Shown here piece by piece: positions 51,610 through 64,000 of a DNA stretch of 64,000 bases. Source of the stretch: Pantoea sp. CCBC3-3-1 (lineage in GTDB: Bacteria > Pseudomonadota > Gammaproteobacteria > Enterobacterales > Enterobacteriaceae); NCBI RefSeq assembly GCF_007981265.1, contig NZ_CP034363.1, positions 4,154,001 to 4,218,000 on the forward strand, written 5' to 3'. The first letter of the stretch is position 1. Each line of letters begins with the position of its first letter. The translations under genes and the position numbers were made by a program. The notes below the pieces were generated by a model. It did no database searches. It saw only the letters and a list, made by a program, of their open reading frames with translations, and had not been told where the DNA came from.

Positions 51610-52308
51610 TTAGAAAAAAGCTTTTATCTTTTCGCCGATACGCTTGTTCAGCTGGCAGACACGCGCTTCAGTCAGTGCCAATACCAGCGCAATTTCTTTC
51701 AGGCTCATATCCTGCTGATAATAAAGATTAAGAATGACTTTTTCTCGCGAATCCAGGCTATCAATGGCCAGTGCCAGCGTGCGCTGAATTTCCACCTCAT
51801 CCTCCAGGCGACGCCCCGCGAACGTATAGCCCGGCACCTCTCCTGAAAGCAGCGTGTCGAAGCTCTCCATGGTGCTGGCGTTATCAAGCAGTAAATATTC
51901 CTGATATTCCTCATGCGTCAGATCAAGCGCCTGACGAATCTGTTCTTCAGTAGGTTCACACCCAAGACGACGAGTCAGCTCCCTGATGCCGTCATTGAGC
52001 TTGTGCGTTTTTTGACGCAGGCTGCGCGGCCGCCAGTCATGCTGCCGGAACTGATCAAGTACGGCACCGCGAATGCGCTGAGAAGCATAGCCAACAAATT
52101 TCTCATCGGGACGGCCATAGCGACGAAGCGCTTCCAGCAGACCCATTAGTGCAATCTGCTCAATATCTTCCCTGTCGATCATACTGTTAGCTTGCGGAGC
52201 CAGCTGGCGAACGATTCGCTTAACCAGCGGCAGCCATTGCTGCATATACTGGCTTTCTTCCGTCGGCGTGAGGGAAGGCAGTTCTTTAAATATTTCCTGA
52301 TGTGACAT
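51610..52308 (-). CDS. lafS: Flagellar sigma factor sigma-28 (FliA/LafS-like)
   Basis: FliA-type sigma factor of 232 aa. Region 2 reads VKRIVRQLAPQAN, MIDREDIEQIALMGLLEALRRYG and GYASQRIRGAVLDQFRQHDW; region 4 ends DSREKVILNLYYQQDMSLKEIALVL and EARVCQLNKRIGEKIKAFF. All are standard for flagellar sigma-28. I start at the ATG at 52308; the frame is open further up but that part is basic and unlike FliA. In Flag-2 clusters lafS follows lafE and lafF (fliK, fliL); those genes are missing here, only 204 bases separating it from fliS. Confidence 0.88.
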   Translation of the reverse strand: MSHQEIFKELPSLTPTEESQYMQQWLPLVKRIVRQLAPQANSMIDREDIEQIALMGLLEALRRYGRPDEKFVGYASQRIRGAVLDQFRQHDWRPRSLRQKTHKLNDGIRELTRRLGCEPTEEQIRQALDLTHEEYQEYLLLDNASTMESFDTLLSGEVPGYTFAGRRLEDEVEIQRTLALAIDSLDSREKVILNLYYQQDMSLKEIALVLALTEARVCQLNKRIGEKIKAFF

Positions 52309-52512
52309 GACTGAAAGACCATTTTTAAGAGGGTGGCGCCTTAAAAGCGCCCGGTAGCGTTGCATCTTCAGCTGACGTCGCTCTACAGCCCGCAAATGGC
52401 GAGCATTGATGTGAGCCATTGACCTGAAAATATCAACGGTGAATCCCTTTGATTTTTGGCTGCGGCTTTTCCGTGCGCCGCGCCCGACCAGGCCGTGTTT
52501 CCACCTGATGCC

Positions 52513-52896
52513 TTAGCCTGCCATCCCTTCCCAGCCTTCCAGGATGGCGTGCAGGATCTCTTCTACTTCTTCAATTTGCTCAACGGCCAGATGGTGGCTG
52601 GCGTCATACAGGCGGTAAACGCAATAGTCGTAAAGCCCGGCCAGCCGCAGCGCCACTTCGCCACCGTTGTCAAAATCGAGCGCGCTGGTTAGCGCATTGA
52701 GAATGTCGATACATTTGTTGAGGCTCTCCGCCTTACGTTCCAGACGCCGCATTTCGATATGGTTTTTTGCGCGCGTCAGTTCGTCCAGCAAGCCGCTAAA
52801 CATCATTAATACCCGCTGATGCGGCACGGATGCCGCTGTACGGATTGCCAAATCAGTCGTTTGGTCATGCGTAAAGCCGCTGTTTGCTTTATCCAT
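52513..52896 (-). CDS. lafC: Flagellin chaperone FliS (LafC-like)
   Basis: FliS-family export chaperone, 127 aa, all helical. Typical pieces are HQRVLMMFSGLLDELTRAKNHIEMRRLERKAESLNKCIDILNALTSALD in sections, and GEVALRLAGLYDYCVYRLYDASH. FliS holds flagellin before export, but no flagellin gene is present beside it, which is odd. In complete Flag-2 loci lafA and lafB (flagellin, cap) come next upstream; here there is a 475-base non-coding gap. Confidence 0.85.
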   Translation of the reverse strand: MDKANSGFTHDQTTDLAIRTAASVPHQRVLMMFSGLLDELTRAKNHIEMRRLERKAESLNKCIDILNALTSALDFDNGGEVALRLAGLYDYCVYRLYDASHHLAVEQIEEVEEILHAILEGWEGMAG

Positions 52897-53371
52897 TTCA
52901 CACTCCGTTATAAATCGATAATTAACCTATTTTCAGGCATCCCTTTACCGGCCCTGGCTCAGGCTGCCGGGCATTAATTGCAAAGCCCATGCCAGATCAA
53001 AAAAAGGATATTTATCATATAATTAATAATTAAAGAGGAAGTTTCCCTTCCGCTCAGAGCGGAAGAAAATGGGTGATGGGCGGAAAAAACCAGCGTTCTT
53101 TAGCGAACGTCCTCTGTGCTGCCTTCTCTATTAACAGCGGTGCAGCCTGGACAATGAATAGCGTGGATAATTAACTAACAAATAGAAATCTATTAATTAA
53201 CAATTAATCAGATAAAAATAATTTAATGGCATCATAAAGCTTACAATAATAAACATCTCCTTAATGAAGGCGTTATCTTATTCCCTAAATTTCATTAAAC
53301 GTTGAACAACTTATTTTAGTCAGTGAAAATATTGCCCTGTTCAAACGATCGGCTTTTTGGATATCAACGTT
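52897..53371. other. Intergenic region between fliS and lafZ
   Basis: A 475-base divergent gap, A+T-rich in its right half, where complete Flag-2 clusters carry flagellin and cap genes. No fragment of those genes is visible. Two small inverted repeats occur: TTCCGCT-CAG-AGCGGAA near 53048-53064 and CGTTC-TTTAGC-GAACG near 53094-53109. No convincing sigma-28 promoter was found. Confidence 0.45.
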
Positions 53372-54325
53372 ATGACTTCTCAATGTGTGATTTATCACTG
53401 GTTGATTGATATGCGTTCAGGTTCGTTGATCCATCAGCTGACGGGTGAACAGCGACGTCTGGGTGAATATCAGCTGAAACTGCTGATTGTTTTGGTTCAA
53501 CACGCCGGTAAAATTCTGACGCGTGAGGAGTTGAATACGCTGGTTTGGGAGCGGCGTGTCATTGGTAATAACAGCCTGCCTAACGCTATTCATGCCTTAC
53601 GCGTGGCGCTGGAAGATGATGGTAAACAACAGCGTATTATTAAAACCATCCCCAAAAAAGGCTATATCCTGGAAGCAGAATTTTGCGATTTTATACGGGA
53701 CGAAGAGTACGCCACAGAAACGCCAGCGTTTTCCGCTTCCGTGCTCACTGAGCCTGAAGCGGAAAACGGACCTGAAGCGGAAAGGTTAGCCTTTTCTGAA
53801 GTGCAGGACGGAAGCGGCGAGCAAACTCACGCTCTTGCCAGCGCCCATGAGGAATGGCAAAAAGAGTCACAAAAAGAAAGCGCCAGGCTGACCCAGGCTC
53901 TACAGAAAAAGCACAACCGATTCTGGCGTGGTATGTGTTTAGCGCAGGCGGCATTGTTACTGTTAACGCTGATTTTTCTGGTACGGCAAACCACGCCCGC
54001 CCTGCAAGTGACTGAACAGGCGTCCGGCACGTACAGCAATATTCATATTTATACGCTGAACGCCGGAGAAAACATAAATAAACGGCTTAGCCCTTCACTT
54101 TTCGCCATCAACGCGCTGTTAATGGCCCAGAAGATGCAAATGCAGGTCTACTTCCAGGCCACTGCCACTACCCTGAATTACACGCTGGTCCTCAACGATG
54201 GCTGTTCTCGTCGCCAGCTGGCGATGAATATTGCCCAGTTTCGCAGCGATGAAGTTCAACTCAACGCACTGATTTATCGGGAAACGGAGAGAGAAATAAA
54301 TGAAATGGCGAACTGCGTCAATTAG
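53372..54325 (+). CDS. lafZ: Transmembrane winged-helix regulator (LafZ/CadC-like)
   Basis: ToxR/CadC-type one-component regulator, about 317 aa. The OmpR-type winged helix fills residues 5-100 (LGEYQLKLLIVLVQHAGKILTREELNTLVW, NNSLPNAIHALRVALEDD, IKTIPKKGYILEAEF). A charged linker, one transmembrane helix (AQAALLLLTLIFLV) and a periplasmic domain of about 110 residues with two cysteines follow. LafZ is the membrane regulator of Flag-2 loci, and place and domain order fit. The ATG at 53372 is used; a TTG five codons earlier is possible. The last 26 bases overlap the next gene. Confidence 0.78.
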   Translation: MTSQCVIYHWLIDMRSGSLIHQLTGEQRRLGEYQLKLLIVLVQHAGKILTREELNTLVWERRVIGNNSLPNAIHALRVALEDDGKQQRIIKTIPKKGYILEAEFCDFIRDEEYATETPAFSASVLTEPEAENGPEAERLAFSEVQDGSGEQTHALASAHEEWQKESQKESARLTQALQKKHNRFWRGMCLAQAALLLLTLIFLVRQTTPALQVTEQASGTYSNIHIYTLNAGENINKRLSPSLFAINALLMAQKMQMQVYFQATATTLNYTLVLNDGCSRRQLAMNIAQFRSDEVQLNALIYRETEREINEMANCVN

Positions 54326-54770
54326 CCTGATGCTGCTAACGCTGCTGCTGATCGGCGCAGCAGTCGTCAGGGATCTTTTTTGTTCATCAATGTATCACGC
54401 GCAGCTGTTTCAAGGTCGCGCCAGCGCTAATCCGTCCAATTTTCAGATGGGATATTACGATCTGCTGTCTAAAAACAGCGAGCTCTATAATCTTCATTTT
54501 GAAGCCAGCGATAAAACAGTGATGCTGAAACTTTATAACCCGGACGACAACCGTTTACAGATTAAAGTGCGCATGATGCTCAAGGGCGCCACCTCGCAAG
54601 GGCTAATCTACGATTATCAGCCGGTCTATATCACTAACAGAAATGACGGATTAATGATCTCCAGCGTGCTGAGCTACCTTGAGCAGGAAAAGATCTTTTT
54701 TAGCCGGATCCGTTCTGCCGAGGGTGAAATTACCGCCATTTCAACCGGGCAAATTTTCAGTAATCTTTAA
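54300..54770 (+). CDS. Small inner-membrane protein, FidL/YqeJ-like partner of LafZ
   Basis: A 156-aa protein with one N-terminal transmembrane helix (ISLMLLTLLLIGAAVV) and a periplasmic domain. It overlaps the lafZ gene by 26 bases, so the two are coupled. Other CadC-like regulators are paired with such short membrane proteins (MarT/FidL, YqeI/YqeJ, in a way ToxR/ToxS), which modulate the sensor domain. By analogy it probably tunes LafZ. No sequence signature beyond this arrangement can be claimed. Confidence 0.6.
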   Translation: MKWRTASISLMLLTLLLIGAAVVRDLFCSSMYHAQLFQGRASANPSNFQMGYYDLLSKNSELYNLHFEASDKTVMLKLYNPDDNRLQIKVRMMLKGATSQGLIYDYQPVYITNRNDGLMISSVLSYLEQEKIFFSRIRSAEGEITAISTGQIFSNL

Positions 54771-54834
54771 CTACCGCTCAGGATATTACAGACTCTGCTG
54801 CCGGAGAGGCGGGTCTGGCCCGCCAGTGCCCGGC

Positions 54835-55338
54835 TCATATCACCACCAGTTCTGCATCAAGCGCGCCCGCCTCTTTTAGCGCCTGAAGGATGGCCAGCGT
54901 ATCGTTCGGTGAAGTCCCCAGGCTGTTAAGCGTGTCGACAATGCTGCGCAGGTGGGTACTTGTGGAAAAGATAGTTTTCTGACCCGCGCCACGATGCATA
55001 ACGATTTCACCGGCTGCCGTAACGGCAGTTTTACTCCCGCCTGGCATGCCGGAAGGGTGAATCTTTCCGCTTTCCCGGATGATTACCTGCAAATGCCCAT
55101 GCGAGATCGCTGCGGCATGTACCCTAATCTCCTTGCCCGCTACCAGTGTGCCGGTACGAGCATTAAAAACCACACGAGCGGGCTTTTTACCTGCACGGAG
55201 AGATAACGCTTTTTGTTGAGGCGTAAAAGTGGGATCCACGGGCGTATTAAACGATACGGGGGTATGCCGGGACTGTGCCTGGGCAAGCCCCATCGTTAGC
55301 ATTGCCCCCAGCAAAAAAAATGTGAGTGATTGCGTCAT
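54835..55338 (-). CDS. Truncated flagellar P-ring protein FlgI (signal peptide plus C-terminal part)
   Basis: A 167-aa protein. After a signal peptide (LTFFLLGAMLTMGLAQAQ) comes a short linker and then the FlgI C-terminal part: VVFNARTGTLVAGKEIRVHAA, ISHGHLQVIIRESG, and STHLRSIVDTLNSLG with ILQALKEAGALDAELVVI. Full FlgI is about 365 aa, so roughly 200 residues of the N-terminal part are missing while secretion signal and frame are kept. AAGG upstream marks the ATG at 55338. It is the only survivor of the flgA-L block and points in the usual direction. It might still be made and exported. Confidence 0.75.
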   Translation of the reverse strand: MTQSLTFFLLGAMLTMGLAQAQSRHTPVSFNTPVDPTFTPQQKALSLRAGKKPARVVFNARTGTLVAGKEIRVHAAAISHGHLQVIIRESGKIHPSGMPGGSKTAVTAAGEIVMHRGAGQKTIFSTSTHLRSIVDTLNSLGTSPNDTLAILQALKEAGALDAELVVI

Positions 55339-55612
55339 TGCCAAACCTTAGAGCGAAAAAGGATTAAAGCAGCCTGTTAGCTGCTGAGTGGGGAATATAA
55401 GCGGCAGGCCTTATGCTTTCGTTAATGCACGGGCGGGACTAAGCTTCTGCTTTCTGGCTCGGACAGAGACAAAATGTTAGCGATCTATGCCTTCCCGGTA
55501 ATATGAAAGCCAATATGCCAGCGTTGTCAGCACGCCGATCCTGATCCTTTAAGTTCCCCAAATACCTGACGTCTTAGAGTTGTAGAAATATGACGTTAGG
55601 GAAAACAGCAGG

Positions 55613-55873
55613 ATGAAAATTTCAAGCATTAACCGGGCTTGCGCCCAAAAACAAACCGCACCTCTGCTACGCCAGGCATTCAGCGTAGCGCAGCTCCGGG
55701 CCGATCTGCCGGTTTTGCTCGGCTTTCAGGTCAGGCTGCGAGAGTTCCCCGAAATCAGTGAATGGCGTATTGCGTCAATGCAGCTGGCGCTGCAACGCAA
55801 CGAAATCCCTGCGGATTCAGCAGACATTGCCGCAGCGATGATGGTGTGGTTTTGCAGCAATAAAAATCGGTAA
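55613..55873 (+). CDS. FlgM-like anti-sigma factor, copy 1
   Basis: An 86-aa protein. The last half follows the FlgM C-terminal sigma-28-binding pattern: REFPEISEWRIASMQLALQR then IPADSADIAAAMMVWF, matching MPEVDLARVSEMKAAL and AMM in copy 2. The N-terminal half is not alike except for the opening MKIS. First of two tandem genes, 106 bases apart. It probably restrains LafS. Confidence 0.65.
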   Translation: MKISSINRACAQKQTAPLLRQAFSVAQLRADLPVLLGFQVRLREFPEISEWRIASMQLALQRNEIPADSADIAAAMMVWFCSNKNR

Positions 55874-55979
55874 ATCCCATTATGAGAGAAAAAAGGGATT
55901 ATCTGATTAAGAAGTTATTTAAACGGTCGCTTTCAGCAAGGTAACGTTGATAACTCTCTGAACAAAAAAAGAAAACACG

Positions 55980-56240
55980 ATGAAAATTTCCGCAGAAAAT
56001 CTTATTCATACGACCAGCCCGATCAATCAGGTTATCGCCAGCGCGGTGGAGAGTCCCGGCCAGGCAGCCGTATCGATTGCTGAAACAGGCCTGGTCAGCC
56101 AGACGCAGCAGGCGCTAAAAGCGATGCCGGAGGTGGATTTGGCCAGGGTCAGCGAGATGAAAGCCGCACTGGAAAACGGAACGCTTTCGCTGGATGGTAA
56201 CGTGCTGGCTAAAGCCATGATGGACTACTATCGGCGATAA
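55980..56240 (+). CDS. lfgM: Anti-sigma-28 factor FlgM, copy 2
   Basis: An 86-aa FlgM: MKISAEN at the start, an unstructured middle, then QQALKAMPEVDLARVSEMKAALENGTLS and LDGNVLAKAMMDYYRR, the standard sigma-binding helices. In a complete flagellum FlgM is exported after hook completion to free sigma-28; with no hook genes here that release may not work, or FlgM may leave through the retained gate. flgN is absent. Confidence 0.85.
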   Translation: MKISAENLIHTTSPINQVIASAVESPGQAAVSIAETGLVSQTQQALKAMPEVDLARVSEMKAALENGTLSLDGNVLAKAMMDYYRR

Positions 56241-56316
56241 GCCAAAGCGGCTTTTGTACGATCTCGGGCAGCCTGGCGTTTATTCTTGACCCTTTATCAT
56301 GATCCGCAAATATCCG

Positions 56317-57210
56317 TTATTTCAGCAATGCGATGCCGAAAACGGCGGGATTTGCGGTGAAAACGCGTTGTGGCCGGGCGCGCTGCCAGGCGGCAAACAG
56401 CGCGCTGATATTGACCGTATCCAGCGGCACGTTAAGCTGCATACAGAGCGCACAAAGCATCTTCAGCTGGAAAAAATGTTGGCAAAGATCGGCAAAAGCA
56501 AATTGCCATTCGGCGCTATTGCTGCCGGGAAACACATTGTGATAAAGCTCATAACCGAGAAAGTTGGCCAGTATTCGCGGCAATGCTTGCCAGCCGAGGC
56601 TTTGCTGCTGTAGCGACCGCAAGTGGTGTTGCAGACAATCGTCGGATGACAGGGCCAGTATTGAAAGCTGCCGTGATAATGCCTCACTGTAGTGCCCGGC
56701 AATATTAGCCTGAATATTTAGCTGGCCTAACGTCCGCAGCGCCGCCATCTTACAACCTGCACCATTTTTCCCTTCAGAAAACTCAGCGGCGGACTGGCGC
56801 TGCTGACCCGGATGCAGCAGCTCGTCCATCAGCGTTAACCCGGATTTACCTTTCTGTCGTTGCTGCATTTTTGTGAGAAAACGCCCCAGCTGAAACAGAA
56901 AAAAACAGGGATCCGCCTGGTTCACCGTAAGCAGTTGCAAACAACACTGATTCACCGCCCTGAGTTCAGAACAGAGCGGCGGCAGGTTTTCAGCTATCGC
57001 CTCGCCGATATGCAGTTGCAAAAATTTATCGTGACAGAGAATTTCTCGGGCCGCGCTATCGCAGCTCAGCACGGCGCTGTGACGCACCTGATTTTTCCAG
57101 CGCAGCTGGACCAGCGGCGAAGCGTTAAAACAGCCAGCGCAGCCACAAGCGTGTGGGATCGCTTGTAAACGCAAGACGTAATCGGGCATGTAACTTTCGA
57201 TAAGGCTCAT
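56317..57210 (-). CDS. Shortened FliB-like flagellin lysine-N-methylase (LafV-like)
   Basis: A 297-aa protein with a tentative match to FliB (flagellin lysine methylase, usually about 400 aa). It begins ESYMPDYVLRL as FliB does, has AVLSCDSAAREIL, then NLPPLCSELRAVNQCCLQLL, FLFQLGRFLTKMQ, and ends with LANFLGYELYHNVFPG, all in FliB order. The N-terminal cysteine cluster region, about 70 residues, is reduced to HACGCAGC. AGGA before the ATG at 57210 supports the start. Flag-2 loci carry such a gene here. No flagellin target is nearby. Confidence 0.6.
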   Translation of the reverse strand: MSLIESYMPDYVLRLQAIPHACGCAGCFNASPLVQLRWKNQVRHSAVLSCDSAAREILCHDKFLQLHIGEAIAENLPPLCSELRAVNQCCLQLLTVNQADPCFFLFQLGRFLTKMQQRQKGKSGLTLMDELLHPGQQRQSAAEFSEGKNGAGCKMAALRTLGQLNIQANIAGHYSEALSRQLSILALSSDDCLQHHLRSLQQQSLGWQALPRILANFLGYELYHNVFPGSNSAEWQFAFADLCQHFFQLKMLCALCMQLNVPLDTVNISALFAAWQRARPQRVFTANPAVFGIALLK

Positions 57211-57247
57211 CTCATTCCTGCACTCATTGTGAAAAAACAGCAACGGC

Positions 57248-57691
57248 TTACCTGCCGTTGCGGCCTCTGCTTAGCCTGATTTCTGTCAACTGACGATCGC
57301 TCCGCTGCTGTTCCCACTGCTCCCGGCACTGCCGTTGTGCGGCACGCTGGCGCTCAAGGATCAGGCTCAGCGATTTTTCCCGGCAGGCCTGCTCAACCCA
57401 TTCCTGCGCCAGCGCTTCCTCACGAATTTGCGCCAGCGCCTGTTCCTGCTTCAGCCAGTCGATAATGCATTGGATGCCGGCCTCAAAACGGATCGGGTTA
57501 GAGAGCGTCGCCTTCCCGCTCTCTGGCCTTTGGCCCTGAGCACTCAGGCTGGTTAATTTATTGATAGTGTTGCTGTATCTTTGGCAAACCTGCTGTTGCC
57601 GGGCCAGCCTGCCGCTGGCCGCTTCCAGTTCGCTTTCGCGCATTTGTCGTAACAGTTCCAGCACGTCCAGCTTTTCGACTTTCTTGTCCAT
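57248..57691 (-). CDS. lfiJ: Flagellar export protein FliJ
   Basis: A 147-aa coiled-coil protein (heptads through most of residues 10-140, rich in Q, E and R) in the position of FliJ, ending the fliE-fliF operon. FliJ normally links the FliI ATPase to FlhA and ferries chaperones. FliI and FliH genes, which should precede it, are missing: 58 bases separate it from fliF. Assignment rests on position, length and coiled-coil composition. Confidence 0.75.
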   Translation of the reverse strand: MDKKVEKLDVLELLRQMRESELEAASGRLARQQQVCQRYSNTINKLTSLSAQGQRPESGKATLSNPIRFEAGIQCIIDWLKQEQALAQIREEALAQEWVEQACREKSLSLILERQRAAQRQCREQWEQQRSDRQLTEIRLSRGRNGR

Positions 57692-57749
57692 GTTCTTTCC
57701 TTAGAATTAGGCTCAGGCGGCAAAAGGGCGAGCCTGAAGCTTTGGCAGT

Positions 57750-58970
57750 TTACGTTCGGTCAGGGCGGCGTCTGATACGTTTGAGCAGCAGGACAAGCGC
57801 CGACAGAATCAGCAGCGCGAGACCGCCACGCTGCCCCCAGTTAATCAGGTCTGGCTTTTCCCACCACGGCAGCGGCGGCTCGCTGTCAGGTTTGATTTCA
57901 GGGAAACTCAGCAGGCTGAGGGTCAAGACATCACCGCGTGATGTTTCAATCCCTGCCGCCTGATTGAGCATTTGCTGCACCTGAGCCTGATTTTCCGGCG
58001 TCCAGGCCGCGACGGCCGGCGCAGCACGATTAATCACTACCGAGACCGACAGCTTTTCCAGCTGATAGCCCGGATGGCGGATATGCCGCACGTCGCGGTC
58101 GTAGCTGGATTGCCGTTGCGGCTTAAGAAAACGTTCCCGTGTCTCTTCAATCTCATTGAAATTCACCCGGGGTACGACGCTGATGCGAAAATTGTCCGCG
58201 CCCACCACGGGAGCCAGCAAGTTTGCCAGGCTGCGTTCCGTCTCCTGACGCATCTGTTGCAGCAGATCGCCGTGGGTTTTACTGCCCGCAGTAGAGTGAC
58301 GCTTCGTTCCTGTGCTGGCAGAAAGCAGCGAGCCGTGCTGATCGACTACGCGAACTTCGCTCAGCTTCATACCCGGTACGCTGCCGGCAACAAGACTGAC
58401 GATAGCGGTTACCTGCTCATCACTAAGCTGCCTGCCGACATGTACGCGCAGCATCACTGAGGCAGTGCTGTCCGGTTTATTGCTCAAGACAAACGAGCTG
58501 GTTTCACTCAGGCCCAGATGCACGCGGGCGAATTCAACCGCATCAAGCGCCATAATGCTTTGCGCCAGCTCACCTTCCAGACTGCGCCGGAAGCGGACAT
58601 TCTGTATAAACTGGCTGCTGCCAAGCACGCTCTCTTTGTCCATCAGCTCATAACCCGCCGGAGAATGTGCCGCAACGCCTTTCGATGCCAGCGCCATGCG
58701 GGCTTTCGGCAGATCGGTTTCACGTACCAGCAGATTGCCGCTGTTGGGTTCTACGCGGTAAGAGATTTGCTCGCCGCTGAGAACCTCCACGACCTGCGCA
58801 ACAGGGATATTTTCCTGTGATCCATAAAGCAGGATGTAGTGGTTATCGTTTTGCCACAGCATTGCCACAACAATCGCCGTTGCTGCTATCGCTACCACGC
58901 CAGGCAACAGCCACTTTTTAAGACGTTCGTCAGTCAGAAATGCCCGACACGCCCTGATCTTTTCGTTCAC
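57750..58970 (-). CDS. lfiF: Flagellar MS-ring protein FliF, short form
   Basis: A 406-aa FliF; typical length is about 550. TM1 lies around residues 21-39, RBM1 around 45-105 (HYILLYGSQENIP), RBM2 around 110-230 (ESVLGSSQFIQNVRFRRSLEGEL and VARVHL-type strand here EFARVHLGLSE), RBM3 around 245-365 (DNFRISVVPRVNF, LEKLSVSVVINR). The collar loop in RBM3 is much shortened. TM2 (about 378-396) is followed by only ten basic residues, so the FliG-binding tail is absent. fliG itself is missing. Frame is intact. Confidence 0.88.
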   Translation of the reverse strand: MNEKIRACRAFLTDERLKKWLLPGVVAIAATAIVVAMLWQNDNHYILLYGSQENIPVAQVVEVLSGEQISYRVEPNSGNLLVRETDLPKARMALASKGVAAHSPAGYELMDKESVLGSSQFIQNVRFRRSLEGELAQSIMALDAVEFARVHLGLSETSSFVLSNKPDSTASVMLRVHVGRQLSDEQVTAIVSLVAGSVPGMKLSEVRVVDQHGSLLSASTGTKRHSTAGSKTHGDLLQQMRQETERSLANLLAPVVGADNFRISVVPRVNFNEIEETRERFLKPQRQSSYDRDVRHIRHPGYQLEKLSVSVVINRAAPAVAAWTPENQAQVQQMLNQAAGIETSRGDVLTLSLLSFPEIKPDSEPPLPWWEKPDLINWGQRGGLALLILSALVLLLKRIRRRPDRT

Positions 58971-58977
58971 GTTGAGC

Positions 58978-59328
58978 CTATAGTGTCGTGTTTATGACGT
59001 CGTCAAACGCCGTACTAAGCCTGTCACGTACCTGCGCCAGCACAGAAAAAGCGACGCTGTCCTTCTGACTTTCCAGCATGGCCGCAGCAGAATCGACCCG
59101 CCGTCCTGTTTCCTGGGCAGGCTGCTGCACGCTGGCAGCGTGCTGCACATTATCTCTGTGACTGATAGCCTGATTCAGCACCGCGCCAAAAGAAGGTTGC
59201 TGCATGCCGGTGACTCCATTTGCCATCGGCGGCAATGGGAGTGCGCTGGCCCCGGCACGCATTCGTGCCATTTCGGCCATCATCTGACGTTGTCCGACAT
59301 GCATATCGAAGGTAATTTTTTCTGCCAT
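58978..59328 (-). CDS. lfiE: Flagellar hook-basal body protein FliE
   Basis: A 116-aa FliE, the junction between MS-ring/export gate and rod. The C-terminal signature is DSVAFSVLAQVRDRLSTAFDDVINTTL, in pieces matching the FliE helix (VQVRN...AY..VM). A central SFGAVLNQAI is also typical. It starts the fliE-fliF-fliJ operon with seven bases to fliF. No rod genes are left in the window for it to connect to. Confidence 0.88.
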   Translation of the reverse strand: MAEKITFDMHVGQRQMMAEMARMRAGASALPLPPMANGVTGMQQPSFGAVLNQAISHRDNVQHAASVQQPAQETGRRVDSAAAMLESQKDSVAFSVLAQVRDRLSTAFDDVINTTL

Positions 59329-59348
59329 GTTTTACTTGCCTGTGGTTT

Positions 59349-60470
59349 TCAGGAGAGGTAGCTGGGATCGACACCCTGCGCACGCATGCTGGCCAGACGG
59401 TAGCGCAATGCCCGTGGCGTGATGCCCAGGCACGCCGCCGTCTGGGATTTATTACCCCGATGGCGTTTCAACAAGTCCAGGATATATTGGCATTCCGCCA
59501 TACGACCACGCTGTTTGATGGGGCTTTGCACGCTGGCGGCCCCGGTGTCATCGGAAGTCAGAGCGGGCTGCGGCTTCAGGTTCAGGCCAAAGCAACGTTC
59601 ATCCAGCGGCGTACCGCAGGACATAATCAGCCCACGCTGCACCGCATTTTCCAACTCACGTACATTGCCAGGCCATTCATAGCGTTGCAGATAGCTGCGC
59701 GCGCTGTCGGTAAGATGAGGTTTGCTGCTGCAAAAATCCTGATACTTACGGATAAAAAATTCAGCAAGCGGGACGATGTCCTCCACTCTTTCGCGCAGTG
59801 GCTTGAGCTGGACAGGCACCACGGAAAGCCGGTAAAAAAGATCCTGACGGAACCGCCCTGCCATGATCTCCGCTTCCAGATCCTTATTGGTCGAGGCAAT
59901 CAGTCTGATATTTAACGAAACAGATTTATGGCTTCCTAAACGCTCGACGCTTTTCTCCTGCAATACCCGCAGTAGTTTCACCTGTAGCGCTATTGGCATA
60001 TCACCAATTTCATCTAATAACAGCGTTCCGCCATTGGCCTGTTCAAATTTACCCGGCTGGCTGCTTACCGCGCCGGTGAACGCCCCTTTTTCATATCCAA
60101 AAAGGATGGCTTCCAACATATTTTCAGGAATGGCGGCACAATTAACACCGACATAAGGCGCGCCATTACAGAAAGCATGATGGTGAATATATTTTGCCAC
60201 GCATTCTTTACCGGTTCCCGTTTCGCCTGTTATAAGCACCGGAACGTTAAACTTTGCCACTCTCCGCGCCAGCGATAATAGATCCCTGCTGGATTGAGAA
60301 TGCGAAATAAAACCACTATCGAATTCATCTTCCCCGTTCATTTTCATTGAGAGCATTCCCAGGTTTAACGTTATCGTTTCACTTTGTTTAAGATGTGAGC
60401 AGCATACGCTTTCTGCGTTACACAAATCTCCCATTAATGAGATATTAAAATATAAACCCTTATCAATCAT
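59349..60470 (-). CDS. lafK: Sigma-54-dependent activator LafK
   Basis: NtrC-family activator of about 373 aa that turns on lateral flagellar genes with sigma-54. The AAA+ domain has Walker A (GETGTGKE), GYEKGAFTGAV (sigma-54 contact), Walker B (TLLLDEIGDMP) and the arginine finger region (FRQDLFYRLSVVPV); a C-terminal Fis-type HTH (NKSQTAACLGITPRALRYRL) follows. The N-terminal segment is short and lacks a receiver. Start is uncertain: ATG 60470 or TTG 60518. Divergent from fliP; fliM and fliN, usually next, are absent. Confidence 0.88.
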   Translation of the reverse strand: MIDKGLYFNISLMGDLCNAESVCCSHLKQSETITLNLGMLSMKMNGEDEFDSGFISHSQSSRDLLSLARRVAKFNVPVLITGETGTGKECVAKYIHHHAFCNGAPYVGVNCAAIPENMLEAILFGYEKGAFTGAVSSQPGKFEQANGGTLLLDEIGDMPIALQVKLLRVLQEKSVERLGSHKSVSLNIRLIASTNKDLEAEIMAGRFRQDLFYRLSVVPVQLKPLRERVEDIVPLAEFFIRKYQDFCSSKPHLTDSARSYLQRYEWPGNVRELENAVQRGLIMSCGTPLDERCFGLNLKPQPALTSDDTGAASVQSPIKQRGRMAECQYILDLLKRHRGNKSQTAACLGITPRALRYRLASMRAQGVDPSYLS

Positions 60471-60854
60471 TGGATTAACAAGAAACCCATCGATAAGCTC
60501 TCGTTTTTTAATAATCAATTAATAATGCCCAAGGGATTGCCATTCAGGCTGATAAGCAGTTTAATTTACGTCGTCGTTTCTCTGGCTGTCAGAATAACCC
60601 CCTCTTGCAAGTTGTTCTGCAGAGAGGCGACACTTAAAACAAGAGAAATTGAAAGCTGTAAATTTTAAAACACCAGGGATTATTAATAAGTCGTCAGGCG
60701 GGCTTTACTTTGCAAGCCCAAATAAAATAAGGCACGGATTTATCATCGCGAAGAACATTCAGAAATGATAAGGCGGGGATTTAATAAGTTGGTTCTACCT
60801 TCTTATCATATCCAGCATCTGCTTACGGATAAGCATTATCTGTTTGATACCAAA
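60471..60854. other. Divergent promoter region between lafK and fliP
   Basis: About 380 bases without a gene, where complete Flag-2 loci have fliM and fliN next to fliP. A GG-N10-GC pair (60736-60737 and 60748-60749) has the spacing of a sigma-54 promoter but poor flanking match. No FliM or FliN remnant was visible. The frame into fliP is open from 60765. Confidence 0.4.
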
Positions 60855-61655
60855 ATGACTATTTCCCGTTGCCAAAAAAAATATCCAGTCCGCGTTATTA
60901 TCCCGCGCAGATTTTTATCGCATGGCCTGCTGCTGGCCGGGCTGCTTATTTGCCCACTGGCGGCGCTGGCGGAATCCCGTGGATTGACGCTTTTTAGCGC
61001 GACCACCACGCCTGGCGGTCAGGACTATAGCGTGAAGGTTGAAGTGCTGCTGCTGATGACGCTGCTGGGGCTTCTGCCCGTCGTGCTGCTAATGATGACC
61101 TGTTTTACCCGCTTTATCATCGTGCTGTCGCTGTTGCGCCAGGCGTTGGGACTGCAACAAAGCCCACCCAACAAGGTACTCACCGGCATCGCGCTGGTGC
61201 TAACGCTACTGGTGATGCGGCCGGTTGGGCTGAAGATTTATCAGGATGCGGTTGTGCCTTACCAGAAAGAGCAGATTTCGCTGCAACAGGCGCTGAGTCT
61301 CGGTTCTGCCCCGCTAAAGACCTTTATGTTATCTCAGACCAGCAGCACTGCGCTGGCACAGATTATGACCATCGCCAACGCCAGCGGCGACGCTAAACAG
61401 CAGGATTTGACGTTGATTACGCCTGCTTTTGTGCTGAGCGAGCTGAAAACCGCGTTTAAAATCGGCTTTATGATCTACATCCCGTTTTTGGTGATTGACC
61501 TGATTACGGCCAGCATCCTGATGGCGATGGGGATGATGATGCTTTCGCCACTGATCGTCTCCCTGCCTTTCAAACTGATTCTGTTTGTGCTCTGCGATGG
61601 CTGGTCGCTGATTGTAGGTACGCTGACACACAGCGTTCAGGCTGCCGGATTATGA
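60855..61655 (+). CDS. lfiP: Flagellar export gate protein FliP
   Basis: Core of the type III export gate, about 266 aa. A cleavable signal (LLLAGLLICPLAALA) is followed by VEVLLLMTLLGLLPVVLLMMT, FIIVLSLLRQALGLQQSPPNKVL, DLTLITPAFVLSELKTAFKIGF, and LSPLIVSLPFKLILFVLCDGW, all hallmark FliP stretches (given as fragments). The start is unclear; ATG 60855 is a fair choice, as FliP proteins are about 250 aa. Ends overlapping fliQ. Confidence 0.92.
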   Translation: MTISRCQKKYPVRVIIPRRFLSHGLLLAGLLICPLAALAESRGLTLFSATTTPGGQDYSVKVEVLLLMTLLGLLPVVLLMMTCFTRFIIVLSLLRQALGLQQSPPNKVLTGIALVLTLLVMRPVGLKIYQDAVVPYQKEQISLQQALSLGSAPLKTFMLSQTSSTALAQIMTIANASGDAKQQDLTLITPAFVLSELKTAFKIGFMIYIPFLVIDLITASILMAMGMMMLSPLIVSLPFKLILFVLCDGWSLIVGTLTHSVQAAGL

Positions 61656-61924
61656 TGAGTCTCGATGTGGCCGGCGATATTGTCGCTCAGGGATTGAAGC
61701 TGGTGCTGACCATCGCTTTCGTCGCCATTCTGCCGGGTCTGATAACGGGGCTGATAGTCAGTGTTTTTCAGGCTACGACCCAAATCAACGAGCAGACGCT
61801 CAGCTTCTTACCTCGTCTGGTTGTCACCATGCTGGTATTGGTGTTTGCGGGTAAGTGGATGCTTATTCAGCTAATCGATTTCACCCTGTTGATTTTTGAA
61901 CAGGCTGCTGTGCTGGCCGGATAG
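61652..61924 (+). CDS. lfiQ: Flagellar export gate protein FliQ
   Basis: A 90-aa two-helix subunit of the export gate with GLITGLIVSVFQATTQINEQTL between its membrane helices, the standard FliQ motif in part, and LPRLVVTMLVLVFAGKWM. ATG overlaps the fliP stop (ATGA). Confidence 0.93.
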   Translation: MMSLDVAGDIVAQGLKLVLTIAFVAILPGLITGLIVSVFQATTQINEQTLSFLPRLVVTMLVLVFAGKWMLIQLIDFTLLIFEQAAVLAG

Positions 61925-61934
61925 CGTTCACGTG

Positions 61935-62708
61935 ATGGATATCAACCTTCAGGATCTGATGACGCCTCTGCTGGCATTGTGGCTGCCGCTGGTGCGCACG
62001 ACGGCTTTTTTCCACTGCTGTCCGCTGTTCGATCATCACGCTTTCCCACGCAAGGCCCGCTTCGGGCTGGCATTGCTACTCAGCATAATTATCACCCCGC
62101 TGATTGAGCACAACGTTGTGCTGCATAGGCTGATGAGCTCTCAGACAATCTTGCTGACCGCTGAACAGCTGCTGTGGGGGTTCTTGTTCGGTCAGATACT
62201 GAACTGGGTGTTCTGGGCATTGCAAACCGCTGGCACGCTGTTATCGATGAGTATGGGGCTGGGCATGGCCGTGATGAACGATCCCGGCAGCGGCAGTTCG
62301 ACCATGGTGATTTCCCAAATCGTCTCTGTTTTTAGCGGGCTGCTGTTTTTCAGCATGGACGGGCATCTGCTGCTGGTCACTATTCTGTTCAAAAGTTTCG
62401 CGCTATGGCCGATTAGTCAGGCAATCACGCCCCTGACCCTGAGCTATTTTGTCACCGGCGTGGGCTGGATGATCGCCAGCGCCCTGCTTCTGGCGCTGCC
62501 TGCGGCGATCATTATGCTGATCGTGCAGGGTACTTTTGGTCTGCTTAACCGCATTTCGCCCACGCTGAACCTTTTTGCGCTTGGTTTCCCCGTCAGCATG
62601 CTGTTCGGGCTGCTTTGTCTGATGCTGCTCGCCAGCCGTATTCCTCAACATTATCTTTCGCTGACCAACGACATCCTGGCTCAGCTCGAACACCTTAAGG
62701 TGAACTGA
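61935..62708 (+). CDS. lfiR: Flagellar export gate protein FliR
   Basis: A 257-aa membrane subunit capping FliP-FliQ. Recognisable segments are LWLPLVRTTAFFHCCPLF, ARFGLALLLSIIITPLI, FGQILNWVFWALQTAGTLLSMSMGLGMA and NDPGSGSSTMVIS. The ATG at 61935 sits just past fliQ; its stop overlaps the flhB start. Present and full length. Confidence 0.92.
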   Translation: MDINLQDLMTPLLALWLPLVRTTAFFHCCPLFDHHAFPRKARFGLALLLSIIITPLIEHNVVLHRLMSSQTILLTAEQLLWGFLFGQILNWVFWALQTAGTLLSMSMGLGMAVMNDPGSGSSTMVISQIVSVFSGLLFFSMDGHLLLVTILFKSFALWPISQAITPLTLSYFVTGVGWMIASALLLALPAAIIMLIVQGTFGLLNRISPTLNLFALGFPVSMLFGLLCLMLLASRIPQHYLSLTNDILAQLEHLKVN

Positions 62709-63838
62709 TGTCAGGCTGCGGTGATAAAAGCGAACAACCGACGCAAAACCGATTGCGCCACTCCCGTGAGCAAGGCGATATCGCGCGTTCGAGAGATCTG
62801 GGGACGGCAGCCAGCCTGATCGTTGGCCTGGCAACACTGAGCGCTTTTTTTCCTTACTATCTGCAACTGATGCACAGCACGTTTATCGCGCTACGTCAGA
62901 TCGCCAGCCATATCAACGACGAAGGCGCGCTACGTGAGTTTATGTTGCTCAACGTGCTGGTTATTTTGAAAGTGCTGGCAACCTTAATCCCCATTCCGAC
63001 CGTCTGTTGCCTGGCTAATCTGATCCCCGGCGGCTGGATCTTCGTCCCTGCCCGCCTGCTGCCCGATTTTAATAAAATGAGTCCGCTGGCAGGCGTAAAA
63101 CGGCTGTTCAGCCAGCAACACTATTATGAGGTGCTGAAAACGCTCCTGAAAGGCACGGTGCTGCTGTCGCTGCTGGCCTTTACCCTTTTTCAGCAACTCC
63201 CCGCGCTATTGGATCTCGAAAATCATTTCCTGACCGGAGCGATTGTTTCCGCTCTTCAGCACTATGCCGGGATTATGCAGCAGTTCATTATCATCATCGT
63301 GCTGTTTGCCTTTATTGACCTGCCGATCGGTCACTTTATGTTTATTAAAAAGTTGCGGATGAGTAAGAAAGAGGTACGCGACGATGCTAAAAATCAGGAA
63401 GGCATTCCTCAGGTAAAAAGCCGCCTGCGCCAGCGGCAACGCCAGATGGCAATGGGGCAAGTATCCAGCAAAGTATCCGGGGCAAACGTGGTGATCGTAA
63501 ACCCGACGCATTATGCGGTGGCGCTAAAATATGCCCCCGAAAAGGCCGCCGCACCTTATATCGTGGCAAAAGGAATCGATGAGACTGCCCTGTTAATCTG
63601 CAAGGCCGCACGGCAGCATCAGATTGAAATCGTGGAGTTTCCTTCACTGGCGCGTTCGATTTATCACAGCACAAGCGTCAATCAACAAATTCCTGCCTCC
63701 CTCTTTCGGCCGATAGCGCACATTCTTTCGTACGTCATGCAATTAAAGGCCTGGCGGAAGGGAGAAGGCGCAAAGCCCCGGCTGGATTTACGCACCCCTA
63801 TTCCTGAATACGGAACGGATAAGCATGCCAAAATTTAA
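62708..63838 (+). CDS. lfhB: Flagellar export switch protein FlhB
   Basis: Export substrate-specificity switch, 376 aa, with four membrane helices and a cytoplasmic domain. The autocleavage motif is intact in VIVNPTHYAVALKY. Other marks: RHSREQGDIARSRDLG at the N-terminus, KMSPLAGVKRLFS, and MSKKEVRDDAKNQEG. Its start overlaps the fliR stop, and its end overlaps flhA by 14 bases. The switch normally needs FliK, which is missing here. Confidence 0.93.
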   Translation: MSGCGDKSEQPTQNRLRHSREQGDIARSRDLGTAASLIVGLATLSAFFPYYLQLMHSTFIALRQIASHINDEGALREFMLLNVLVILKVLATLIPIPTVCCLANLIPGGWIFVPARLLPDFNKMSPLAGVKRLFSQQHYYEVLKTLLKGTVLLSLLAFTLFQQLPALLDLENHFLTGAIVSALQHYAGIMQQFIIIIVLFAFIDLPIGHFMFIKKLRMSKKEVRDDAKNQEGIPQVKSRLRQRQRQMAMGQVSSKVSGANVVIVNPTHYAVALKYAPEKAAAPYIVAKGIDETALLICKAARQHQIEIVEFPSLARSIYHSTSVNQQIPASLFRPIAHILSYVMQLKAWRKGEGAKPRLDLRTPIPEYGTDKHAKI

Positions 63839-64000
63839 TTTCCGCCAGATCGTGGCGCTGTTGGGACAAAGCCCTTTTGGCGTACCGCTGCTGCTGCTCT
63901 GCGTGCTGGCCATGGTGATACTACCGCTGTCGCCACTGGTGCTGGACGTGCTGTTCACCTTCAACATCGTGCTGGCGATTATGGTGCTGCTGGCCAGCGT
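63825..64000 (+). CDS. lfhA: Flagellar export protein FlhA (3' end outside window)
   Basis: First 58 codons of FlhA: FRQIVALLGQSPFGVPLLL then MVILPLSPLVLDVLFTFNIVLAIMVLLAS, the typical first membrane segments including the FNI region. FlhA forms the nonameric ring that docks chaperones and provides proton-driven export. It is the last gene of the gate operon and runs off the window. Confidence 0.9.
   Translation, partial: MPKFNFRQIVALLGQSPFGVPLLLLCVLAMVILPLSPLVLDVLFTFNIVLAIMVLLAS

Follow-up and report, generated by a model that had tools for sequence, protein, structure and literature searches.

A reduced derivative of the Flag-2 (lateral flagellum) locus lies at positions 51,610–64,000 of the window, the 64,000-nucleotide stretch of Pantoea sp. 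CCBC3-3-1 DNA analyzed here. We propose, with moderate confidence, that it is functional and represents the remnant of an ion-driven, ATPase-less exporter under Flag-2 control. ORFs, Pfam matches, and comparison with full loci show that it is colinear with Flag-2 clusters, as a preliminary description of the DNA had claimed; its flhA gene ends 1.9 kb beyond the window edge. The locus keeps genes for sigma-28, FliS, LafZ and a small partner, two FlgM-like proteins, a FliB-like protein, FliJ, FliF, FliE, LafK, FliPQR, and FlhBA (Table 1), and the occurrence of lafK and lafZ beside colinear fli/flh genes at a single site marks it as Flag-2. The initial calls for sigma-28, FliS, LafZ, FlgM, FliJ, FliF, FliE, LafK, FliPQR, and FlhB agree with the ORFs and Pfam matches. 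The export gate is complete, with whole frames for FliP, FliQ, FliR, FlhB, and FlhA.

Table 1. Features of the reduced Flag-2 locus (window coordinates unless a different contig is given; omega on the window branch)
Feature	Position	Strand	Evidence
Flag-2 sigma-28 factor (lafS/FliA-WhiG family)	51610..52419	-	NCBIfam NF009091 344 bits, cut-off 339; Pfam sigma regions 2, 3, 4; omega 0.05
fliS (lafC) chaperone	52513..52896	-	Pfam FliS 2e-28; omega 0.21-0.22
Sigma-54 promoter-like site TGGCATGGGCTTTGCA	52979..52994	-	Consensus scan, 0 mismatches; 98 bp upstream of fliS
lafZ, membrane winged-helix regulator	53357..54325	+	Pfam Trans_reg_C; PDB profile matches; hydropathy
orf156, small membrane-anchored protein overlapping lafZ, 156 aa	54300..54770	+	N-terminal TM (hydropathy)
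mini-FlgI, 167 aa from ATG	54835..55338	-	Pfam FlgI positions 219-343; alignment; upstream AAGG
FlgM-like ORF, 86 aa (possible second anti-sigma-28)	55613..55873	+	Resemblance by eye
flgM anti-sigma-28	55980..56240	+	Pfam FlgM 3e-10
fliB-like (flagellin lysine methylase family, under family cut-off)	56317..57243	-	NCBIfam NF038110 38 bits, cut-off 85; omega 0.23-0.24
fliJ, complete	57248..57691	-	Pfam FliJ 27.3 bits, cut-off 28.4; full-length alignment to G003; omega 0.19
fliF, truncated after TM2, shortened periplasmic loop	57750..58970	-	Pfam YscJ_FliF and FliF_C; alignment; omega 0.09-0.10
fliE	58978..59328	-	Pfam FliE; omega 0.17
lafK, sigma-54 dependent activator	59349..60518	-	Pfam Sigma54_activat 3e-67; omega 0.12
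fliM 5' remnant, ~48 codons	60753..60896	+	tblastn E 6e-6; in frame with fliP, runs into fliP
fliP	60765..61655	+	Pfam FliP 9e-76; omega 0.05
fliQ	61652..61924	+	Pfam Bac_export_3
fliR	61896..62708	+	Pfam Bac_export_1; omega 0.07
flhB, full length, with NPTH motif	62708..63838	+	Pfam FlhB 2e-99; omega 0.22-0.23
flhA	63825..64000, continues past window; whole gene L005:825-2921	+	698 codons/aa, whole; omega 0.08

Genes for the C-ring, the FliHI ATPase, the rod, hook, and stator, and a filament with its own flagellin are absent from the locus by tblastn of the region, bearing out the losses (motor, ATPase, rod, hook, filament) that had been claimed. With E. coli Flag-2 queries at E ≤ 1e-3, the locus region yielded no fliM, fliN, fliG, fliH, fliI, flgN, or flgA-H, and no flgJ-L, lafW, lafA, fliD, fliK, fliL, motA, or motB; the fliL query also matches nothing in the full loci of G003, G004, and G028. 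At 93 bp, the gap between fliS and the sigma gene in the window has no space for fliK and fliL. The missing genes do not lie just past position 64,000 either, where flhA is completed and non-flagellar genes follow. A permissive search with 23 G003 protein queries, a set without FliL, returned two likely junction remnants: the 5' end of fliM, which matches the G003 fliM start region at 80% over 41 bp, and a possible lafW tail of 20 residues (E 0.017). Another match, to fliH (E 0.010), lies within lafZ and was judged to be due to chance, and all remaining matches had E values of at least 0.055. Genome searches with a single domain family each for FliG and FliI gave one match apiece; the two lie close to the Flag-1 fliF (C1:2.89 Mb), and none was found outside the Flag-1 region. 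Thus, neither tblastn, the permissive search, nor the genome FliI search detected a FliHI ATPase of the same system. Because the 39-gene conserved Flag-2 set (PMC6993521) is incomplete in the window, we regard the locus as a Flag-2 derivative rather than a working lateral flagellum. As far as ring and ATPase are concerned, the locus does not qualify as a non-flagellar T3SS (injectisome): FliF retains the flagellar FliF_C domain, and the sole T3SS-type ATPase domain in the genome lies near the Flag-1 fliF. Five flagellin-like genes elsewhere in the genome are 34–38% like LafA in their best segment, and a sigma-28 type promoter precedes four of them (regex search).

The junctions of the locus retain the fliM start region ahead of fliP and a fliD-type sigma-54 site ahead of fliS. 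Sites equivalent to TGGCATGGGCTTTGCA lie 89–103 bp upstream of fliD in all five full same-genus loci scanned. The flgI piece, initially called a fragment, does comprise the C-terminal half of FlgI, but reads as a 167-aa protein in which this half is fused to an N-terminus that resembles a signal peptide by eye.

The C-terminal segment of FliF binds FliG, letting the MS ring carry the C-ring. The view that the MS ring is kept holds for the presence of FliF, but the alignment shows that the protein ends just after the second membrane helix, without this C-ring-carrying tail, and is also short of about 50 residues in the periplasmic loop. The cut falls at the identical point in all four clade proteins (P0001–P0004) and in none of the seven other Flag-2 FliFs aligned, and over shared columns the window FliF is 84–88% identical to the truncated proteins of three other lineages. 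A family scan found 63 other genomes with a Flag-2 FliF, of which 62 have frames of at least 528 aa; the single short one results from a frameshift, and fliG still follows it. FlhB measures 376 aa in all four clade members, and the window LafZ is 85–87% identical to LafZ on two contigs that also bear truncated FliF. The preliminary description had called for a search for the reduced set in other genomes and had allowed that only this strain might have lost blocks. The same FliF truncation occurs in three other lineages, a full-length FlhB 80–82% identical to that of the window is found in three others, and the gate-plus-ring state is not an accident of a single strain. Relative to the distance to G003, divergence between the window and contig 603224 (branch sums taken by hand from protein trees) is 0.22 for LafZ, 0.31 for FliF, and 0.52 for FlhB. 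Inside the clade, FliF thus evolves a little faster than LafZ, and FlhB much more clearly so.

Neutral dN/dS values, which would have spoken against a retained system, were not observed: a codon branch test rejected neutrality for all 12 genes tested (2ΔlnL 9.3–146.5; two tree topologies), with omega of 0.04–0.24 on the window branch, which spans time before the reduction too. Omega differs from the background for flhB and fliS only (5% level, uncorrected for 12 tests), flhB being relaxed (0.22–0.23 versus 0.12). None of 180 invariant positions is changed in FlhA residues 1–350 and none of 39 in FliQ, whereas changes affect 13 of 136 in FlhA residues 351–700, 8 of 82 in FlhB, 6 of 16 in FliE, and 4 of 15 in FliJ. 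In a leave-one-out control, the change in FlhA, FliE, and FliJ exceeds that of every other member; in FlhB it does not. Three of four clade members have an altered FlhB cleavage motif, and the cytoplasmic parts of FlhA and FlhB have changed.

The main rival to a retained exporter, which we consider serious though unlikely, is slow decay: the machine would be dead, its export genes would be leaving, and only the regulators (LafZ-orf156, LafK, sigma-28, FlgM) would be selected, with the window clade at an early stage of a series seen in congeners. At the same chromosomal site, congeners range from a full locus (G003) through gate-plus-ring and regulators only to a lone LafZ pair. Regulator-only remnants occur in six same-genus genomes, and 8 of 37 have the Flag-2 sigma but no machine. 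Another 15 machine-less genomes carry lafZ with neither lafK nor sigma (one copy broken; lafK searched in 14 of the 15). In two more lineages, whose LafZ is 82% and 75% like that of the window, the matches listed include neither FliF nor FlhB on the contigs that bear LafZ. The relaxed flhB, the altered cleavage motif, and the changes in the FlhA cytoplasmic domain, FliE, and FliJ fit this scenario as well. Against it stand the intact FliF and FlhB frames, found in four protein clusters each, of which the three non-window ones are 80–88% identical to the window over aligned columns; because the database proteins derive from open frames, broken copies would go unseen in this comparison. Decay also fits poorly with the unchanged invariant positions in FliQ and the first half of FlhA, and with the rejection of omega = 1 for every gene tested on the window branch. 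In the congeners, the Flag-2 regulators remain under purifying selection after loss of the machine.

The preliminary description had left the choice between a stripped-down secretion device and an intermediate of decay. Since no missing genes lie beyond the window, the truncation recurs in other lineages, and neutrality is rejected, a stable reduced system is favored over late decay; secretion driven by proton motive force is what we infer for it. The suggestion of a new type of flagellum-derived system does not hold: five of 37 genus genomes, all more distant congeners (G003, G004, G014, G028, and G033), own a full or near-full Flag-2 locus, and the window locus is therefore a reduction from a complete Flag-2 system, not an independent type.

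For the reduced exporter, we infer assembly, export, energy source, and cargo as follows. A small inner-membrane export device would consist of FliE, a FliF ring without C-ring attachment, FliJ, and the FliPQR-FlhB-FlhA gate. It would need no ATPase, drawing its energy from the ion motive force, and FliJ would help to set the gate. As rod and hook are absent, cargo would be released to the periplasm; FlgM and FliE are the sole classical export substrates left, so the likeliest cargo would be FlgM, whose secretion would act as a regulatory readout, or else an effector encoded elsewhere in the genome. Control would run via LafZ and orf156, LafK and sigma-54, and sigma-28 with FlgM and FliS. In support, work described in PMC4230889 reports that Salmonella builds functional flagella without ATPase activity once substrate levels and proton motive force are raised, that excess substrate bypasses C-ring defects, and that a hook-protein fusion goes to the periplasm when the proximal rod is missing; a FliF deletion serves there as the negative control for export. 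Counting against the exporter, FliJ action on FlhA is described in the same work as requiring FliH and FliI, and the gate is also reported to need FliHIJ normally (PMC9114704).

If the Flag-2 gate and ring instead used the FliHI of the cell's own Flag-1, perhaps along with some of its C-ring or rod components, the system would not be ATPase-less in practice. The single FliG and FliI near the Flag-1 fliF, and the Flag-1 FlhB and the flagellins encoded at other places in the chromosome, are consistent with such borrowing, but the FliF tail able to hold any FliG is lost and the window FliF is only 34% identical to its Flag-1 counterpart, leaving this hybrid improbable. Still less probable is a non-secretory or nanotube role, in which FliPQR-FlhBA would act as a CORE-like platform, or FlhA would be an ion channel with input to a regulatory circuit: channel activity has been described for FlhA (PMC4778876), but FliE, FliF, and FliJ, which lie outside the named CORE set, are kept too.

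Compared with the Flag-2 locus of the E. coli 042 type (PMC6993521), the window matches in gene families, in their order and orientation, and in the presence of LafK, LafZ, and sigma-28, but has about 24 genes fewer, a FliF without the FliG-binding tail, and a mini-FlgI. As modes of Flag-2 loss, that account gives cluster-wide deletions and en bloc loss of lfhA-lafU, and its sections considered here name no gate-plus-ring or regulator-only state. The FT3SS of Lysobacter enzymogenes OH11 likewise keeps export genes without a flagellum and is reported to be functional, also without FliG (PMC7277350, PMC9927559). However, Lysobacter still has its FliI ATPase and makes use of it, whereas the window system lacks its own FliH and FliI and its host has a separate flagellar system. 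Unlike the window locus, Buchnera basal bodies retain ATPase, switch, rod, and hook genes. As in the window, the Buchnera flagellum has shrunk to a putative secretion device (PMC13063649). Chlamydia also keeps a few flagellar export genes without a flagellum (FliF, FlhA, and FliI), but, unlike the window, these include the ATPase (PMC2830194). In fliHI-deletion bypass strains of Salmonella, the gate works without FliHI, with a bypass site at residue 28 of FlhB (PMC4778876, PMC4230889, PMC9114704). The equivalent residue is changed in all four clade FlhBs (A, A, A, V); as Ala is also found there in Vibrio FlhB, L025, and P0306, the match is suggestive only. In contrast to the window clade, the bypass strains are laboratory mutants; they possess rod and hook, and they have Thr at this position.

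For a stand-alone ion-driven gate without ATPase and C-ring, the evidence considered here comes from papers on Salmonella mutants. If our reading is true, the locus would offer a natural experiment on gate autonomy, with FliHI, C-ring, and FliF attachment gone and gate and FliJ under selection, and a model for the steps linking the flagellum and a simpler secretion device. More tentatively, an Erwinia-like clade might possess a natural exporter that runs on ion motive force under Flag-2 regulators, free of ATPase, C-ring, and rod, and a LafZ-orf156/LafK/sigma-28/FlgM module might also have outlived the flagellum in congeners, co-opted for another job. Of the 31 genus genomes that lack a Flag-2 FliF, 21 carry lafZ, and in four of these (G001, G007, G012, and G023) searches for FliF and FlhB both gave no match, which suggests an unrecognized regulon.

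LafZ comprises a CadC/ToxR-like DNA-binding domain, one TM, and a periplasmic domain (Pfam Trans_reg_C, hydropathy), and a PDB profile search matches it to the DNA-binding domains of ToxR and CadC. Its periplasmic Cys pair, C283 and C320, is invariant in 37 of 37 rows, and together with the winged helix and single TM identifies a ToxR/CadC-type membrane one-component regulator. The adjacent orf156, which has a TM and overlaps lafZ, would be the candidate small effector of a ToxR/ToxS-like pair; it matched no Pfam or NCBIfam family. The 86-aa ORF adjoining flgM, missing from the preliminary description, had no match in Pfam or NCBIfam; by eye it looks like a second FlgM, and it has a weak match adjoining flgM in G028 (E 3e-4).

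The Flag-2 locus at the right of the window is a conserved, reduced derivative of the lateral flagellum locus that is under selection. The explanation we favor is a functional reduced exporter, the main rival being slow decay of leftover export genes. Genes were identified by Pfam and by tblastn against the annotated Escherichia coli Flag-2 locus, and these analyses confirmed the ordered but reduced gene set reported in the preliminary description: sigma-28, FliS, LafZ, half of FlgI, FlgM, FliJ, FliF, FliE, LafK, FliP, FliQ, FliR, FlhB, and FlhA keep the Flag-2 order and orientation, while a FliB-like protein was assigned by synteny and an NCBIfam score below the cut-off. The DNA beyond position 64000, where missing genes might have lain, completes flhA and continues directly with non-flagellar genes. 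In tblastn searches of the locus with E. coli Flag-2 proteins, fliM, fliN, fliG, fliH, fliI, flgN, flgA-flgH, flgJ-flgL, lafW, lafA, fliD, fliK, fliL, motA, and motB are absent as genes; fliL is counted as missing because the fliS-sigma gap is only 93 bp, the E. coli query failing to detect fliL even in three of five full loci. A permissive search of the locus with 23 proteins of G003, a congener with a full Flag-2, recovered a 5′ stub of fliM, which now directly precedes fliP and is in frame with it, and a possible lafW tail; the remaining matches were judged to be chance.

No relocated copy of FliG or FliI was found. The genome-wide searches covered FliG, FliI, and flagellin, and the sole FliG and FliI domains found sit near fliF of Flag-1, the separate flagellar system of the same genome, with no second copy. 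The flagellin search for a LafA elsewhere in the genome gave only genes that are 34-38% LafA-like, four of five with a FliA-type promoter by regular expression. Four dispersed 269-aa flagellin genes have identical first 60 residues, three of them preceded by a sigma-28 type promoter (regular expression), and a 482-aa flagellin-like gene also lies behind such a promoter.

The reduced state recurs in other lineages. Among 5.8 billion proteins, the nearest FliFs (P0001-P0004) measure 406, 414, 415, and 435 aa, with table identities of 99, 85, 82, and 77%; over ungapped columns, P0002-P0004 are 84-88% identical to the window FliF. All four, which define the clade discussed here, share the same FliF end point, and the tail is present in seven of seven other aligned FliFs. 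FlhBs from three other clusters are 80-82% identical to that of the window and each exactly 376 aa long, and two contigs (603,224 and 51,210 bases) each carry window-type FliF, FlhB, and LafZ, co-location being judged by matching contig size. The possibility, raised initially, that only this strain had lost gene blocks is rejected, as is an assembly artefact, since the same truncated FliF is found on other contigs. A scan of 392 family genomes revealed 63 others with a Flag-2 FliF, in 62 of which the frame spans at least 528 aa. The short FliF of G444, a candidate truncation outside the clade, proved to result from a frameshift, with an intact order in which fliG still follows, and a scan of viral contigs found no relative.

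FliF and FlgI are reshaped rather than merely retained. The 406-aa window FliF stops no more than about ten residues from the second membrane helix and is some 50 residues shorter in one periplasmic loop, the seven other aligned Flag-2 FliFs being 528-551 aa long. The first half of FlgI is gone, and the remaining ORF (mini-FlgI, 167 aa) comprises an ATG start with an upstream AAGG, a signal-peptide-like stretch (by eye), and the FlgI C-terminal half. Behind the cut fliF, fliJ keeps a plausible ribosome site (by eye). A perfect sigma-54 site, located 89-103 bp before fliD in all five full loci of the genus, now lies 98 bp before fliS.

Selection on the window branch was assessed with a codon branch model on six taxa for 12 retained genes, a set without lafZ, orf156 (a 156-aa membrane protein overlapping lafZ), flgM, the FlgM-like ORF, and mini-FlgI. 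Omega ranged from 0.04 (fliQ) to 0.24 (fliB), and neutrality (omega = 1) was rejected in all 12 (2dlnL 9.3 to 146.5), on a branch that also spans time before the reduction. Only in flhB (2dlnL 5.8 and 4.9 under two topologies) and fliS (4.7 and 5.3) did a separate window omega fit better than a shared one, uncorrected. The first fixed topology placed G028 and G004 otherwise than the gene trees of lafK and sigma do; a rerun on the lafK/sigma topology gave the same outcome.

Compared with 40 other Flag-2 FlhAs, the window FlhA has none of 180 invariant positions changed in residues 1-350 and 13 of 136 in residues 351-700 (Fisher p 1e-5). Changes affect 0/39 invariant positions in FliQ, 3/119 in FliP, 3/70 in FliR, 2/139 in LafK, 8/82 in FlhB, 6/16 in FliE, and 4/15 in FliJ; in FliF, 2/100 are substituted and 21 more lost by gap. 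Leave-one-out controls peak at 7 changes in FlhA, 13 in FlhB, 5 in FliE, and 3 in FliJ; the window exceeds these maxima in FlhA, FliE, and FliJ and stays below in FlhB. Thus, the membrane core is tightly held and the surfaces once facing lost partners have moved. The pattern could reflect a device that no longer has to serve a hook and filament, or an initial phase of decay.

The FlhB cleavage motif NPTH is kept in the window and in 115 of 116 other FlhB matches (P0245-P0360); the other three members of the clade have NPTR, NLTH, and NPTR instead. FlhB residue 28 is proline in 115 of these 116 database proteins and in 35 of 37 loci; it corresponds to Pro-28 of Salmonella FlhB, a FliHI bypass site, and every one of the four clade members has another residue there. 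As sequence evidence, this change is only suggestive of a FliHI bypass: we downgraded it because 11 of 120 conserved FlhB positions are altered in all four members, giving a chance of about 1 in 11 of hitting this one. Alanine also occupies the equivalent position in Vibrio, in the fetched locus L025, and in the database protein P0306.

Within the genus, a Flag-2 FliF occurs in six of 37 genomes (own included), namely in the window and in five full or near-full loci. The full locus of G003 has the window's flanking genes, which were not found in the fetched stretches of the other four. The Flag-2 sigma is present in 14 of 37 genomes (eight without a Flag-2 FliF), LafK in 12 of the 36 searched, and LafZ in 27 of 37 (21 without a Flag-2 FliF). 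Six genomes retain a colinear lafK, orf156, lafZ, and sigma, some also with flgM, fliS, fliL, or a short flhB. Among eighteen further lafZ loci, three of them from genomes whose full Flag-2 is elsewhere, lafZ adjoins the gene that flanks the old Flag-2 site in 17 (by eye) and orf156 is open beside lafZ in 17; in G019, lafZ is broken and orf156 absent. In G023, searches gave no FliF or FlhB match. Three genomes (G004, G014, and G033) carry a full Flag-2 without lafZ at another site and lafZ-orf156 at the old one, which suggests that the machine was relocated or re-acquired.

Locations of the loci and genes discussed (positions without prefix are window positions; C1, own chromosome; L, fetched loci)
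Feature	Location	Description
Window	C1:4154001-4218000	in a genome of 5.16 Mb
Reduced Flag-2 locus	from 51610	sigma-28 gene to flhA, ending 1.9 kb beyond the window edge
Cupin-like protein	49122-50345	two-domain, near the locus
269-aa flagellin genes	C1:2256975, 2841043, 1725037, 2350830	L213-L216
482-aa flagellin-like gene	C1:2213109	L218
G023 Flag-2 remnant	L080 126-5144	lafK, lafZ, orf156, flgM, fliS, sigma kept
Full Flag-2 of G004, G014, G033	L081-L082, L085-L088
lafZ-orf156 of G004, G014, G033	L108, L116, L117
LafZ-orf156 at former Flag-2 site	L106, L108, L110-L113, L116-L127	mostly without machine
Open flhB frame, G010	L093 7350-8072	about 220-240 codons, ends about at membrane-domain end
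Open flhB frame, G025	L089 12188-12865	about 220-240 codons, ends about at membrane-domain end
Citrate-fermentation-like block, G025	L089 1600-10200
fliP on E. coli plasmid record	NZ_CP104632.1 19994-20613	record of 100,861 bp

Pairwise omega was fitted for congeners, leaving out lafZ of G005-G006 and orf156 of G011-G033 for runaway branch lengths. LafZ omega is 0.17-0.24 in the four usable machine-less pairs (0.13-0.24 over seven usable of eight), so that an unselected FliF would be expected to have diverged much further by this time and to be broken. By identity, the two proteins evolve at about equal rates within the clade (FliF 84-88%, LafZ 85-87%). When the divergence between the window and the 603,224-base contig is scaled by distance to G003 (protein-tree branch lengths summed by hand), it amounts to 0.31 for FliF, 0.52 for FlhB, and 0.22 for LafZ; inside the clade, FliF is slightly and FlhB clearly accelerated. 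The close pair G020/G032, which lacks a Flag-2 FliF, gave omegas of 0.27 (lafK), 0.15 (sigma), 0.16 (lafZ), and 0.16 (orf156), neutrality being rejected in all. Where LafZ-orf156 occupies the former Flag-2 site, the usable pairs examined show purifying selection on it. The short FlhB ORFs of regulator-only genomes show weak constraint (omega 0.33 for G010-G025 and 0.49 for G020-G032; omega 1 rejected, 2dlnL 23.3 and 7.3). The nearest PDB relatives of the LafZ DNA-binding domain are ToxR and CadC; in the periplasmic part of LafZ, two cysteines are conserved without exception (37 of 37 rows).

An export function of the reduced locus is plausible. The putative exporter would comprise FliF as a scaffold, FliE, the five gate proteins, and FliJ. 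For Salmonella, the consulted parts of two papers (PMC4230889, PMC4778876) describe the gate as an ion-driven protein antiporter whose efficient export mode is set by FliJ; flagella form without ATPase activity once proton motive force or substrate increases, excess substrate bypasses C-ring defects, and a hook-protein fusion is secreted to the periplasm when the proximal rod is missing. According to the consulted passages, FliH and FliI are also needed for the action of FliJ on FlhA, and the gate normally requires FliHIJ (PMC4230889; PMC9114704), a point against efficient operation of a device without ATPase. Because of this dependence and the acceleration of FlhB, we give a functional reduced exporter an even chance.

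The literature portions retrieved describe no gate-plus-ring Flag-2 state, natural ATPase-less flagellar exporter, or tested LafZ function. De Maayer et al, 2020 (PMC6993521) report cluster-wide and en bloc losses of Flag-2, the smallest loci spanning 3.4 kb and encoding five proteins; their supplementary tables may list a regulator-only locus. The nearest functional precedent found is Lysobacter, which, in the sections consulted (PMC7277350, PMC9927559), differs in keeping FliI.

Several further observations concern the surroundings of these loci. The cupin-like protein near the window locus is oxalate-decarboxylase-like by eye, and starts resembling it adjoin lafZ in L112 and L116. The citrate-fermentation-like block of G025 (by eye) lies within its Flag-2 remnant. 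Finally, the fliP on the E. coli plasmid record shares 73% identity with the window Flag-2 fliP, and a plasmid-borne Flag-2-like locus may exist.
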